From: Lachnoclostridium sp. An196 | GTDB taxonomy: Bacteria > Bacillota > Clostridia > Lachnospirales > Lachnospiraceae | DNA length: 64,000 nucleotides | Assembly: GCF_002160135.1 (NCBI RefSeq) | Contig: NZ_NFJZ01000002.1 | Coordinates: forward strand, 310,001 to 374,000 | Direction: 5' to 3' | In this document: positions 26,900 to 31,917 of the stretch, piece after piece | Layout of the letters: every line of letters begins with the position of its first letter | How positions within the stretch are numbered: the first letter of the stretch is position 1 | Translations under genes and position numbers: made by a program | Notes under the pieces: generated by a model | The model's input: the letters and a program-made list of their open reading frames with translations, nothing else | Told to the model about the DNA's origin: nothing | Database searches by the model: none

Positions 26900-27006
26900 A
26901 GAAGCAGGCAGAAGCATCTGCCATAATAAGAACAGAAGCGGTCGGGGCATGCGTTTGCTGCATGCTCCTGTTTTTCATACCGGTGTGAGAAAAAGGGAGG
27001 TATCAT

Positions 27007-28635
27007 ATGCCGAAATATCTGAAGATCTGTCTGTTGTCTGTCTGTCTGCTGCTGACTGTGGGCCTGCTGTCTGCCTGCGGAAGCAGCGGAGCCGAAGAGT
27101 CCTCCGGGACATGGCAGACTTTCAGGACGAGAGGGGCGCATGAGACGATCCGGATCCTGTCCGGTTCAGAGAATCAGGAACTGGCATCCATATTGGAGCA
27201 GTGCGCGTCTGAGACGAAGGTAGATATTGAGATCGAGTACAAGGGATCGCTGGATATCATGCGGGAACTGCAGCAGGGCGCTGAAGATTATGACGCGGTC
27301 TGGCCTGCGAGCAGCCTTTGGATCTCCATGGGAGATACGGGATATCTGGTAAAACATGCGGAGTCTGTCTCCATGACGCCGGTGGTATTCGGGATCCGTG
27401 ACAGCCTGGCGGAAGAACTGGGATTTAAAGGCAGAGACGTGTCGGTAAACGAAATCCTGGAGGCGATCCGTTCCGGCCGGATGTCATTCTGTATGACCAG
27501 CGCCACCCAGTCCAATTCCGGGGCCAGCGCCTATATCGGTTTTCTGTACGCTCTGATGGGCAAACAGGACAGTATGACGGAGGAAGATCTGGATAATGAA
27601 GAACTGAAACAGGAAATTACAGAACTGCTGTCCGGTATTGAACGAAGTTCCGGAAGTTCTGACTGGCTGAAAGATATGTTCCTGAACGGCGACTATGACG
27701 CCATGGTCAATTATGAGTGCCTGATGATCAGCGCCAATCAGCAGCTGGAAGCAGAGGGAAAAGAAACTTTGTACGTGGTCTATCCCTACGATGGACTGAG
27801 TATCGCGGACTCGCCGTTCGGGTATGTGGATCATGGCGACAGCGGCAAAGAGGAAGCGTTTCTGAAAGTGCAGGAATACCTGCTGTCGGACGAAGCTCAG
27901 AATGCGATTCAGCGTACCGGGCGCAGAACCGGCTATGAAGGCGTGAAGGAAGAAAATCTGGATGTATTCCGCAGCGACTGGGGTATCGATACGGAGCGGA
28001 TCCTTTCACCGATCGTGATGCCCTCTTCGGAGGTCCTGCTGAAGGCATTGAATCTGTATCAGACAGAATTTAAAAAACCGTCGTTGAACGTGTATTGTCT
28101 GGATTTTTCCGGAAGCATGATCGGGGAAGGAAACCGTCAGCTGGTGGAAGCTATGCAGCAGATCCTGGATCAGGACTACGCCCGCCAGAACCTTCTTCAG
28201 GCAAACCAGGGCGAAGTAAATGTCGTAATTACATTCAGCGATGAAATCAATAATATCTATGTGGTAAATGATTCCACAGATGAGAATCTGCTGGAATTGT
28301 ACGAAACGGTTGCCTCAGAGGATTGTACCGGCGGAACAGACATCTATGACGCCGCGCTGACGGGGCTGCAGATGATAGAAGAGGATTATGACGCAAGCCA
28401 GTATACGCCTGCGATTATTCTGATGACGGACGGCAGATCCAACGGCGGCATGGACTATTCGGATTTCGCGGAGGCATATCAGGACTACGGAAGCGATATC
28501 CCGGTATTTTCTATTATGTTCGGAGACGCCAGAGAGGATCAGCTGGAAGAACTGGCCAATCTTACGAATGCCAGAGTGTTCGATGGAAGAGAAGATCTGA
28601 TAGGGGCTTTCCGAAGCGTGAAAGGATATAACTAG
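27007..28635 (+). CDS. Lipoprotein with substrate-binding-like and von Willebrand A domains
   Basis: A 542-residue exported lipoprotein (signal peptide, lipobox LLSAC, then a Ser/Gly linker). Residues about 45-340 resemble a type 2 periplasmic-binding fold (TIRILSGSENQELASILEQ, DYDAVWPASSLWIS, TSATQSNSGASAYIGFLYAL). Residues about 350-540 are a VWA domain with a full MIDAS (DFSGSMIGEG, CTGGTDIYDA, LMTDGRSNGG). It should bind a ligand and a metal-dependent protein partner on the outer face. It heads a four-gene operon with XpaC-like, membrane-anchored binding-protein-like and TelA proteins; no ABC permease or ATPase is present. Confidence 0.88.
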   Translation: MPKYLKICLLSVCLLLTVGLLSACGSSGAEESSGTWQTFRTRGAHETIRILSGSENQELASILEQCASETKVDIEIEYKGSLDIMRELQQGAEDYDAVWPASSLWISMGDTGYLVKHAESVSMTPVVFGIRDSLAEELGFKGRDVSVNEILEAIRSGRMSFCMTSATQSNSGASAYIGFLYALMGKQDSMTEEDLDNEELKQEITELLSGIERSSGSSDWLKDMFLNGDYDAMVNYECLMISANQQLEAEGKETLYVVYPYDGLSIADSPFGYVDHGDSGKEEAFLKVQEYLLSDEAQNAIQRTGRRTGYEGVKEENLDVFRSDWGIDTERILSPIVMPSSEVLLKALNLYQTEFKKPSLNVYCLDFSGSMIGEGNRQLVEAMQQILDQDYARQNLLQANQGEVNVVITFSDEINNIYVVNDSTDENLLELYETVASEDCTGGTDIYDAALTGLQMIEEDYDASQYTPAIILMTDGRSNGGMDYSDFAEAYQDYGSDIPVFSIMFGDAREDQLEELANLTNARVFDGREDLIGAFRSVKGYN

Positions 28636-29250
28636 ATGAAGCGAAAAGAAGAGGTACGAAGCATATTGTCAGGACTGGCGGCGGCAGTGTTTTTCCTGGC
28701 GGCGTTTCTGGGACTTCACTGGAATTTCTTCCTCTGCATCGTTCTGGCGGTGCTGCTGTTTGAAGGCGTATATCTGCTGAGCCGCCCCAGACGGAGGATC
28801 GGAAAGATCATCGTGGAAGATCTGGAGAATGGGGAGGAGCTGGAGAAGAAACTGGAAGAAGCCAGAGAAGACTTTGAGAATATACGCAGATCCATGAAAC
28901 AGATCGAAGACGCTGAACTGCGGGAACAGTCGGAACAGCTGCATGAGACGGCGGCCCGCATCCTGAAGTATCTGGAAAAACATCCGGAGAAGATCGGCAT
29001 GGCCAGACGGTTCATCGACTACTATCAGGATACCGCGTCTTCTCTGCTGGGGAAATATGTGGAACTGCAGGAGAGCAGTCTGAAGACAGAGGAAGCGCTG
29101 CGTCTGAAAGAGGACACCAAAGGCGCGATCAAGACTTTGAACCGTGCTTTTGAACAGCAGTTCCAGCGCCTGATGAGCAGTGAAATGCTGGATATGGACG
29201 CAGAGATCAAACTGCTGGAAAAAATGCGAAAGATGGAGGGGATCACATGA
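28636..29250 (+). CDS. XpaC-like membrane protein
   Basis: A 204-residue protein starting one base after the VWA stop. Two adjacent hydrophobic helices (residues about 10-48) anchor it, followed by a long charged cytoplasmic coiled coil rich in Glu, Lys and Leu. It resembles the XpaC/YceG-side family that is regularly paired with TelA; the XpaC name comes from a 5-bromo-4-chloroindolyl phosphate hydrolysis phenotype and its biochemical role is unknown. It overlaps the next gene by 4 nt. Confidence 0.8.
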   Translation: MKRKEEVRSILSGLAAAVFFLAAFLGLHWNFFLCIVLAVLLFEGVYLLSRPRRRIGKIIVEDLENGEELEKKLEEAREDFENIRRSMKQIEDAELREQSEQLHETAARILKYLEKHPEKIGMARRFIDYYQDTASSLLGKYVELQESSLKTEEALRLKEDTKGAIKTLNRAFEQQFQRLMSSEMLDMDAEIKLLEKMRKMEGIT

Positions 29251-30302
29251 AATCCAGAGCACTGGGAATCATTCTTCTCGCGGTAGTGATCCTGGCTTCC
29301 GGAGGATACTATCTGTATTCTTCCCAGAGCAGGGTGACCGTGCTGGACGGATATCTGGGCGGAGAGAAGATCGGGCTTTTTGAAGATGAAGAGGCGGCGG
29401 AGATCCTGAGAAGGGAGTACCATCTGGAATTTCAATATTCCAGAGCAGGCTCCCTGGATATGGTGACTGCCGATCAGACGGGGATGGACTATCTGTTCCC
29501 TTCCAGCCAGACGGCGCTGGCATATTATGAAGACGAGAAAGGGCAGCCGGTGCAGGATGAGATCATATTCAATACGCCGATTGTTCTTTATACACATCAG
29601 CTTGTCCTGGACGCGCTGATGAGGGAAGGCATCGTGGAAGAAGAGGAGGGGGTCTATTATGCGGATATGGTGAAGCTGACAGATCTGATCATGGCAGACA
29701 CTTCCTGGGCGGATCTGGGGGTTCCGGAGCTCTACGGGAAAGTCTCTGTGGACACGACAGATCCTGCCAAATCCAATTCCGGAAATATGTTCGCGGCGCT
29801 GCTGGCAAATGTGCTAAACGGCGGGGAGACGGTGGACGAGACTACCGTGGAAAACGTTATTCCGAAACTTCAGGAGATCTTTGCCAGACTGGGATATATG
29901 GAGACGTCGTCTTCTGATCTGTTCAATCAGTTCCTGCGGATGGGAGTGGGCGCGAAGCCGATGATCGCCGGATATGAGAGCCAGCTTCTGGAATTCGCGG
30001 TGGAAAATCCGGAGGATTATGAACAGATGAAGGATGATCTGGTGATGATCTATCCGTCTCCTACCGTATGGTCCACACACGTATATATTGCGCTGGACGA
30101 AGCCGGGCGCGCAGGAGCGGAGGCGCTGCTGGACAGAGACATCCAGAAGCTGGCATGGGAAAAGCATGGATTCCGGACCAGCACTTACGGGGCGGCAAGC
30201 CAGAGTTTTGAAGGAATAATAGAAGAAATGGCGCCGGAGGTGACCAGAGTGATGCAGGTGCCGGATTATCCGGCCATGAGGCGGATCATAGACAGTCTGT
30301 AG
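29247..30302 (+). CDS. Membrane-anchored extracellular binding-protein-like protein
   Basis: A 351-residue protein with an N-terminal signal anchor (ALGIILLAVVILASGGYYLY) lacking a lipobox Cys, then an extracytoplasmic type 2 binding fold. The core (GSLDMVTADQTGMDYLFPSS, STDPAKSNSGNMFAALLANV-like segments, MIAGYESQLLEFA) is parallel to the binding-like half of the VWA lipoprotein two genes upstream. The two may be related and bind the same class of ligand. With no transporter encoded, sensing or assembly is more likely than uptake. Confidence 0.78.
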   Translation: MKSRALGIILLAVVILASGGYYLYSSQSRVTVLDGYLGGEKIGLFEDEEAAEILRREYHLEFQYSRAGSLDMVTADQTGMDYLFPSSQTALAYYEDEKGQPVQDEIIFNTPIVLYTHQLVLDALMREGIVEEEEGVYYADMVKLTDLIMADTSWADLGVPELYGKVSVDTTDPAKSNSGNMFAALLANVLNGGETVDETTVENVIPKLQEIFARLGYMETSSSDLFNQFLRMGVGAKPMIAGYESQLLEFAVENPEDYEQMKDDLVMIYPSPTVWSTHVYIALDEAGRAGAEALLDRDIQKLAWEKHGFRTSTYGAASQSFEGIIEEMAPEVTRVMQVPDYPAMRRIIDSL

Positions 30303-30316
30303 AAAAGGAGAAGAAA

Positions 30317-31453
30317 ATGGGAGAGATTACATTGGCAGATCTGGCGCGGGCCAGAGGACAGCAGGAGACTGCGGATACGGAACAGGGAGAACTCACAGAA
30401 GTAAAATCGCAGATGCCTGTTTTTACGGAAGAGGAACAGAAGAAGATCCGTGAAATCCGGGAATCGATTGATTTGATGGATTCTCAGGCGGTGATACAGT
30501 ACGGCGTAGGCGCGCAGCGGAACCTCTCGGATTTCGCGGATACGGTTCTGGGGAATGTCCGCAGTAAAGATACCGGTTATGTGGGAGGTCTTTTATCCGA
30601 TCTGGTTATCCAGGTGAAGGGTATGGATATCACGAAGCCGGGAGACGGGGAAGGGATCCTGGATAAAATCCCGTTTGTACGCAACGCCCGGAACAGTCTG
30701 GAAAAATTCCGGGAACGCTATGCGAAAGTGGAAGTTCAGATAGACCGGATTGAAGGCGAACTGGAAAAAGCCCGGGTCAGCATGCTGAAAGATATCGGCA
30801 TGTTTGATGCCATGTATGAAAAAAACCTGGAATATTTCAGGGAACTGCAGATCTATATTGAAGCAGGGGAAGAAAAACTGACCGAGCTGCGGGAAAAAAC
30901 GCTGCCGGGCCTCAGGGCGGAAGCAGAGCGTTCGGATGATCCTATGGCGGCGCAGCTGGTGAATGACTTTGAGGAGACGGTGAGCAGATTTGAGAAAAAA
31001 CTGTATGATCTCAAACTGAGCCGTACGATTGCCATCCAGACGGCGCCGCAGATCAAACTGATCCAGAATAATGACAAACTGCTGGTAGAACGTATTCAGA
31101 CGGCTGTCATGAACACGATTCCTGTATGGAAAGGCCAGATCGTCATCGCATTGGGACTGTACCGTCAGGAAAAGACCTTGAAGATGCAGAAAGAAGTGAT
31201 GAATACGACGAACGAGCTTCTGAAAAAGAATTCAGAGCTGTTGAAATCCAATACGGTGGAGACGGCAAGAGCATCGGAGGCCGGGATCGTGGAAATCGAT
31301 ACCCTGCGCAAAGTAAACGAGAACCTGATCTCCACGATTGAGGAGACTCTTCGGATCCAGCAGGAAGGAAGACAGAAACGACAGGCGGCAGAACAGGAAC
31401 TGGCAAGACTGGAAGACGAGTTAAGAAACAAACTGATGGCCGCAAGAGAATAA
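30317..31453 (+). CDS. telA: TelA/KlaA family toxic-anion resistance protein
   Basis: A 378-residue, mostly helical soluble protein with the TelA pattern: SIDLMDSQAVIQYGVGAQRNLSDFAD at the start, then long coiled coils (RNSLEKFRERYAKVEVQIDRIE), QTAPQIKLIQNNDKLLVERIQ, and WKGQIVIALGLYRQEKTLKMQ near the end. TelA proteins are linked to tellurite and envelope-stress resistance, but the mechanism is not known. It is the fourth gene of the operon, 14 bp after the binding-like gene with AAAGGAG. Confidence 0.93.
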   Translation: MGEITLADLARARGQQETADTEQGELTEVKSQMPVFTEEEQKKIREIRESIDLMDSQAVIQYGVGAQRNLSDFADTVLGNVRSKDTGYVGGLLSDLVIQVKGMDITKPGDGEGILDKIPFVRNARNSLEKFRERYAKVEVQIDRIEGELEKARVSMLKDIGMFDAMYEKNLEYFRELQIYIEAGEEKLTELREKTLPGLRAEAERSDDPMAAQLVNDFEETVSRFEKKLYDLKLSRTIAIQTAPQIKLIQNNDKLLVERIQTAVMNTIPVWKGQIVIALGLYRQEKTLKMQKEVMNTTNELLKKNSELLKSNTVETARASEAGIVEIDTLRKVNENLISTIEETLRIQQEGRQKRQAAEQELARLEDELRNKLMAARE

Positions 31454-31476: not shown

Positions 31477-31506
31477 GGCCGGGGGAGCTTGAAAGTTTCC
31501 CCGGCC
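31477..31506 (+). terminator. GC-rich hairpin after telA
   Basis: GGCCGGGGGA (31477-31486) pairs with TCCCCGGCC (31498-31506) around an 11-nt loop. The T run is poor (TGTTATAT), so termination may be incomplete and the HPt gene may receive read-through. Confidence 0.5.
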
Positions 31507-31563
31507 TGTTATATGATGAAAGAAAACGGACCGCAGATAAATGGTCCGGGATCGGAGAGAAAG

Positions 31564-31917
31564 ATGACGCCGGAAGAATTCTATAAAGAGATTGGAGCGG
31601 ATTATCAGACCGCGTTGTCCAGGATGATGGGAAATCAGGGGCTGCTTGCGCGGATGCTGAAAAAATTTGAGAATGACAGGAACTATGAGGCGCTGGAAAA
31701 AGCCATGGAAGAAAATGACTATGAAGGGATCTTTGCCGCCGCCCATACGCTGAAAGGTGTGGCGGGAAATCTGGAGCTTACGCCGCTTTATGAAACGTGT
31801 ACGCGTCTGTCCGACGCCACCCGCGGCGGGAAAAAAGACGGCGATGTGCAGGGCCTTTTTCTCGCGGTACGGGAGGCATATCGGAATGTGATGGAGAATG
31901 TGAAAAAGCTGGCATAG
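31564..31917 (+). CDS. Orphan HPt (histidine phosphotransfer) domain protein
   Basis: A 117-residue four-helix protein starting at ATG 31564 behind GGAGAG. The phosphorylatable His lies in FAAAHTLKGVAGNLEL, which matches the HPt consensus HxLKG. HPt proteins relay phosphate in multi-step phosphorelays that need a hybrid kinase. No hybrid kinase is in the window; the adjacent kinase is a classical one. The gene is convergent with that kinase, with only three bases between the stops, and lies 110 bp after telA. Its partner is unknown. Confidence 0.9.
   Translation: MTPEEFYKEIGADYQTALSRMMGNQGLLARMLKKFENDRNYEALEKAMEENDYEGIFAAAHTLKGVAGNLELTPLYETCTRLSDATRGGKKDGDVQGLFLAVREAYRNVMENVKKLA

Follow-up and report, generated by a model that had tools for sequence, protein, structure and literature searches.

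A conserved clostridial operon encoding two extracytoplasmic PBP-fold proteins, an XpaC-family protein and TelA

The operon and its proteins

The window analyzed here, a stretch of 64,000 nucleotides from Lachnoclostridium sp. An196 (positions 310001-374000 of contig 12; genome, 3.25 Mb), carries four genes in a row on the + strand between 27007 and 31453 (Table 1). They are separated by gaps of 0, -4, and 14 bp in the ORF calls, exactly the tight packing given in the original prediction. The hairpin that closes the operon has the longest stem of the six terminator-like sites found in the region, where 4.1 were expected. The gene azlC is located upstream in the opposite orientation. Just 5′ of the operon, at 26944-26968, a ten-pair stem-loop followed by TGTTTTTC is terminator-like or attenuator-like. 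Beyond the operon hairpin lies an Hpt-domain gene (31489-31917), which is adjoined by a histidine kinase and a response regulator on the other strand. The operon is approximately 99 % identical to one from an uncultured Lachnoclostridium (L021). Antisense ORFs beneath the XpaC and SBP2 genes (clusters c6, c13, and c37) were set aside as artefacts of longest-frame picking.

Table 1 Features of the operon (positions are those of the window)
Feature	Position	Strand	Product or evidence
SBP-VWA gene; type II PBP domain (~residues 46-340) and C-terminal VWA domain (~360-542)	27007-28635	+	542 aa; Pfam, AF2, Foldseek
Lipobox LSAC, predicted lipidated Cys24	27067-27078	+	C24 is invariant both among 37 Firmicutes sequences and across phyla in the seven-row alignment
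SATQSNSG (residues 165-172), helix start in PBP domain; candidate anion-binding loop	27499-27522	+	Conservation
MIDAS DFSGS (residues 366-370)	28102-28116	+	Completed by T444 (28336-28338) and D475 (28429-28431)
XpaC-family gene (PF10112); N-terminal TM hairpin (~residues 9-49), then helical domain	28636-29250	+	204 aa; Pfam, hydropathy, alignment
SBP2 gene; PBP-fold protein with single N-terminal membrane anchor (~residues 2-27)	29247-30302	+	351 aa; AF2, Foldseek, profile comparison
TTDPAKSNSGN (residues 170-180), counterpart of the SBP-VWA SNSG loop	29754-29786	+	Aligned to SATQSNSG; conserved in 39 sequences
telA; TelA family protein, cytoplasmic, no TM segment	30317-31453	+	378 aa; PF05816, 3.1e-117; hydropathy
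Terminator-like hairpin, 13 bp stem	31477-31506	+	24 bp past telA stop, closes operon; consensus match

The first protein, SBP-VWA, starts with a predicted signal peptide with a lipobox cysteine, as expected of a bacterial lipoprotein. It matches the Pfam families SBP_bac_11 (6.7e-15) and VWA (1.1e-10), and no NCBIfam model scored above its cut-off. Its AF2 model (pLDDT 89.6) resembles FbpA, AfuA, PotF, and the VWA domain of inter-alpha-inhibitor in a Foldseek comparison with the PDB. The MIDAS is complete (D366-S368-S370/T444/D475, the pattern DxSxS...T...D) and invariant in 37 homologues from operons of the same type. It is likewise invariant in a seven-row alignment that takes in Deinococcus, two Proteobacteria (Sphaerotilus and Variovorax), and one actinomycete (Nonomuraea). 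In the PBP domain, residues S165, T167, Q168, N170, S171, and G172 of the SATQSNSG loop are invariant in the 37 homologues, and N170 and G172 are so across phyla in the seven-row alignment. A role of this loop in ligand binding may be inferred from the sequence. Long SBP-VWA frames at three loci (L063, L087, and L098) were considered as N-terminal fusions and rejected: they are open upstream frames with no mutual similarity.

The second gene product belongs to the XpaC family (Pfam PF10112, 2.3e-35), and its TM hairpin was seen both in hydropathy and in an alignment of 28 sequences. The third, SBP2, is recognized by no Pfam family and is devoid of a lipobox; its N-terminal membrane anchor is kept. 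Profile-profile comparison relates SBP2 to the PBP part of SBP-VWA with a probability of 97.6 (E 3.8e-12) and aligns DPxKSNSG of SBP2 with SATQSNSG. As PDB sequence searches with SBP2 profiles gave nothing useful, the fold assignment of SBP2 rests on its AF2 model (pLDDT 88.8) and on Foldseek, of which the top PDB matches are sulfate-binding proteins (5um2/1sbp) and ModA, with iron-binding PBPs also among the best; at TM values of 0.45-0.6, fold matches do not fix a ligand. Sulfate-binding proteins have a similar NPKTSGG loop, which offers a lead. The fourth protein is TelA, so that the window holds a PF10112 gene beside a PF05816 telA gene, though the SBP2 gene sits between them. The original prediction had thus named the fourth gene correctly, and the complete MIDAS it gave for the VWA domain was found with all five residues. 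Its guess that the third protein has a binding fold is supported by the profile match, the AF2 model, and Foldseek, and the profile comparison also bears out the proposed relatedness of the two outer proteins.

Conservation and related forms

A scan of one genome per species retrieved 242 relatives of the SBP2 gene, of which the best 80 were kept as loci. All of these 80 are from Clostridia, many of them from the guts of poultry or other animals. The order SBP-VWA, XpaC, SBP2 on one strand was present in each of the 75 loci with enough upstream DNA, and the exact 4-bp overlap between the XpaC and SBP2 genes was found in 51 of the 80. All four genes are present in 40 loci and only the first three in 35, while 5 are cut by contig ends; some of the 35 trio-only loci lack TelA because the contig ends there. 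The gene immediately after SBP2 is telA in 44 of the 80 loci. The genes flanking the loci vary by lineage, and since the order has been conserved over 80 loci with differing flanks, the unit is far beyond chance. The original prediction of a four-gene unit is therefore upheld for the invariable order of the first three genes (75/75) and has to be qualified for TelA, which is often outside the locus (35/80 trio); as a consequence, SBP-VWA, XpaC, and SBP2 are taken to be the tight core.

In 26 of 28 genomes with a locus without TelA, the protein is encoded elsewhere, and in almost all cases examined this non-locus TelA gene lies beside another XpaC-family gene. In a sample of 200 Lachnospiraceae genomes, SBP2 was present in 9 and TelA, over the cut-off, in 100; all nine SBP2 genomes hold TelA (Fisher p 0.003, uncorrected for relatedness). 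These data support TelA as the usual cytosolic partner of the trio.

Three loci show irregular copies. A decayed operon in L020 (G071:C38, 13349-14603) consists of fused pieces of VWA, XpaC, and SBP2 with internal deletions, and an intact xpaC-telA pair is present elsewhere in that genome (L130). In L107 (G544:C4, 8986-11239), a tandem second SBP-VWA/XpaC copy lies beside a full operon; its SBP-VWA frame is split into two ORFs with an in-frame TGA. The in-operon TelA of L018 (G067:C17, 9667-10386) is short (239 aa) and divergent, and a full TelA together with XpaC is encoded elsewhere in the genome (L129).

Relatives outside the Firmicutes were found in plasmid-collection records. In Sphaerotilus, Variovorax, and Nonomuraea, the order is SBP2, TelA, SBP-VWA, and a protein of ~210 aa, and a Deinococcus cassette consists of SBP2, SBP-VWA, and the ~210 aa protein, without TelA. 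The SBP2 proteins of these other phyla match a profile made from Firmicutes only, at E values of 4e-31 to 9e-55. The ~210 aa protein has hydrophobic N-terminal segments and an XpaC-like topology. On plasmid 2 of Variovorax sp. SRS16 (L113), Wadjet genes are located ~2 kb from the cassette, and a flotillin-domain gene lies close on the other side. On a Thiodictyon plasmid (L115, 5803-9834), SBP-VWA precedes a stand-alone SBP_bac_11 protein and a hypothetical protein of 224 aa, an arrangement that is perhaps another form; TelA was not seen in this stretch.

A further, three-gene form encodes a TM-hairpin protein without a Pfam match, a TM-anchored SBP-VWA in which the MIDAS is kept, and TelA. 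It was found in six of the sampled Lachnospiraceae genomes examined and in other families of Firmicutes (L138-L143, L159, L160, and L162); two further loci (L157 and L161) have no TelA nearby. SBP2 was not found at the three-gene loci, from which it follows that it is neither a universal partner of the VWA protein nor essential to every form. The proposal that the VWA domain grips SBP2 is weakened by the same observation, the MIDAS being kept at loci without SBP2. Profile alignment did not establish XpaC and the small TM proteins seen in other forms as homologues (hhalign probabilities of 34 across 18 columns, 44 across 35 columns, and 1.9 for alignment A9 versus A6), and their likeness is therefore claimed for topology only.

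In the TelA tree, which has several long branches, the proteins from xpaC-telA pairs form their own clade (100/99), apart from the window TelA, while those of the other-phylum cassettes group with TelA from three-gene loci (100/100) at a good distance from the window type, a placement that is provisional. Lachnospiraceae also have Ter-type telA loci (yceG-telA-terD); these are separate, and their TelA proteins form a further clade. The association is found again in Proteobacteria, Actinomycetota, and other Firmicutes, where both the TelA clades and the TM-hairpin proteins are divergent. The partnership must therefore either have been kept across long evolutionary distances or have arisen repeatedly. 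Judged from these gene arrangements, either history would speak for a function.

No ABC permease or ATPase was found to recur in the flanks of the loci. The ABC systems near some of them are lineage-specific, have a binding protein to themselves, or belong to different types (such as OpuAC glycine-betaine, CbiQ-type, and exporters). The absence of a transporter in the original prediction thus holds at the level of the locus, with no ABC partner conserved across the flanks. The neighborhood is conserved and no matching ABC partner came to light in the flanks, the two points on which that prediction had been staked beforehand. The operon is not a standard ABC binding-protein system.

Possible functions of the operon

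Two anchored extracytoplasmic PBP-fold proteins, one of them with a VWA domain and its MIDAS, an XpaC hairpin in the membrane, and TelA, a soluble helical protein of the cytosol, are encoded together in one conserved unit. With no transporter in sight, the simplest reading is that the unit couples the two sides of the membrane, either to sense or to protect. The operon may accordingly encode a transporter-independent envelope sensor or guard, in which the PBP and VWA domains outside are linked through an XpaC-type anchor to TelA inside; we give this a probability of about 0.4. The ligand of the PBP domains would be small and probably anionic, or else a component of the damaged envelope. Binding might then alter the contacts of the PBPs with each other or with the wall in a metal-dependent manner, via the VWA domain, and the XpaC hairpin could relay the change to its own cytoplasmic helices. 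These helices might recruit or organize TelA at the membrane, which would in turn raise the tolerance to envelope-active or anionic toxicants, as has been reported for TelA/YaaN elsewhere. Counting against this reading are the loci without TelA, including that of Deinococcus, and the lack of SBP2 in the three-gene form. A wider claim, which we regard as rather doubtful, is that the operon represents a signalling system that is widespread but has not been described: anchored PBP-type receptors, one with a metal-dependent VWA adhesion domain, would act across the membrane to control the TelA membrane-stress machinery without a transporter, kinase, or chemoreceptor, and at least three forms would have evolved (SBP2 with XpaC, SBP2 with a different small TM protein, and the three-gene form).

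The PBP folds could also have lost ligand binding and serve protein contacts, forming together with the VWA domain a surface- or wall-facing scaffold that is positioned by XpaC and TelA for envelope assembly or membrane remodelling. Protein contacts are the usual role of VWA domains, PBP domains are known in non-transport roles, the ligand residues of the two proteins are putative, and the MIDAS is invariant. A structural role of this kind is unlikely, albeit not far-fetched: the polar loops SATQSNSG and DPxKSNSG, typical of PBP sites, are almost invariant in both proteins, which suggests that a ligand site has been kept.

Ligand binding would also be retained if the PBPs acted as an outside decoy that captures a toxic oxyanion or cationic peptide while TelA acts independently inside, with no signalling. 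The nearest folds include sulfate- and molybdate-binding proteins, and TelA is named after toxic-anion resistance. However, a protein that binds toxicants stoichiometrically and does not transport them gives little protection, and the obligate presence of XpaC between the two sides is suggestive of transmembrane coupling, which makes simple sequestration improbable.

Orphan binding proteins are known, and some loci are near ABC genes, so that both binding proteins might work with an ABC permease and ATPase from another part of the genome. Ordinary uptake is nevertheless very improbable: there is no recurrent ABC partner, the ABC genes nearby are lineage-specific and belong to different types (one system has an OpuAC binding protein to itself), the VWA fusion is atypical of transport, and XpaC-like genes always, and telA genes usually, accompany those of the binding proteins. 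We give equally little credence to defence against contact or phage, in which the surface proteins would recognize a phage or a rival's factor and TelA would seal the membrane: a role in blocking the entry of phages or xenobiotics has been proposed for the Ter system, which includes TelA and vWA proteins (PMC7824862), and the Variovorax cassette is close to Wadjet genes, but no solid PADLOC match was obtained (the best, LmuB to TelA at 5.8e-4, is likely due to coiled coil), there was no match among 50,697 phage records, and most loci are in ordinary chromosomal neighborhoods.

TelA and XpaC are common stress proteins, and the operon ties TelA to two outward-facing binding domains. As such, it is a concrete candidate for the trigger of TelA and makes that question testable. 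If the sensor or guard reading is true, a transporter-free use of binding proteins would be added to envelope biology.

Relation to known systems

The phrase "Substrate-binding and VWA domain-containing protein", an automatic NCBI name for homologous proteins of Variovorax and Streptomyces with the same domain order, was in no paper of the openly available literature searched. In a search largely limited to open-access literature, no description of the combination of SBP-VWA, XpaC, SBP2, and TelA was found. With the type II PBPs of ABC importers (Sbp, ModA, and FbpA), the window proteins have the fold in common, and SBP-VWA also SBP_bac_11; they differ from these in having no cognate permease or ATPase, in the VWA fusion, in the TM anchor of one of them, and in being kept with XpaC and TelA. 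The Ter system (TerD, TerC, the vWA protein TerF, TelA, and YceG) has TelA and a VWA-domain protein in common with the operon (PMC7824862), whereas the window VWA domain is extracytoplasmic and fused to a PBP domain. None of TerD, TerC, and YceG turned up among the genes examined near the window operon or among the recurrent neighbors identified.

The XpaC-TelA pair, present as xpaC-yaaN in B. subtilis and lmo1966-lmo1967 in Listeria, likewise combines an XpaC-family protein with TelA. In Bacillus subtilis, xpaC-yaaN is a core sigma-W operon (PMC3498285), and a passage in PMC12791056, citing Collins 2010, states that disruption of lmo1967/TelA in Listeria led to more sensitivity to nisin and tellurite. 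The inner module of the operon and that of the pair are likely the same. Unlike the window operon, the pair comes without extracytoplasmic proteins; the pair-type XpaC, often a longer protein (422 vs 204 aa), gives a weak score against the XpaC model of the operon, and the pair-type TelA falls in a clade of its own, apart from that of the window.

In conclusion, the operon is a relative of the XpaC-TelA pair, and its link to the Ter system is a loose one. It appears to be a previously undescribed variant of the XpaC-TelA module, and that it is a separate system is a real possibility.
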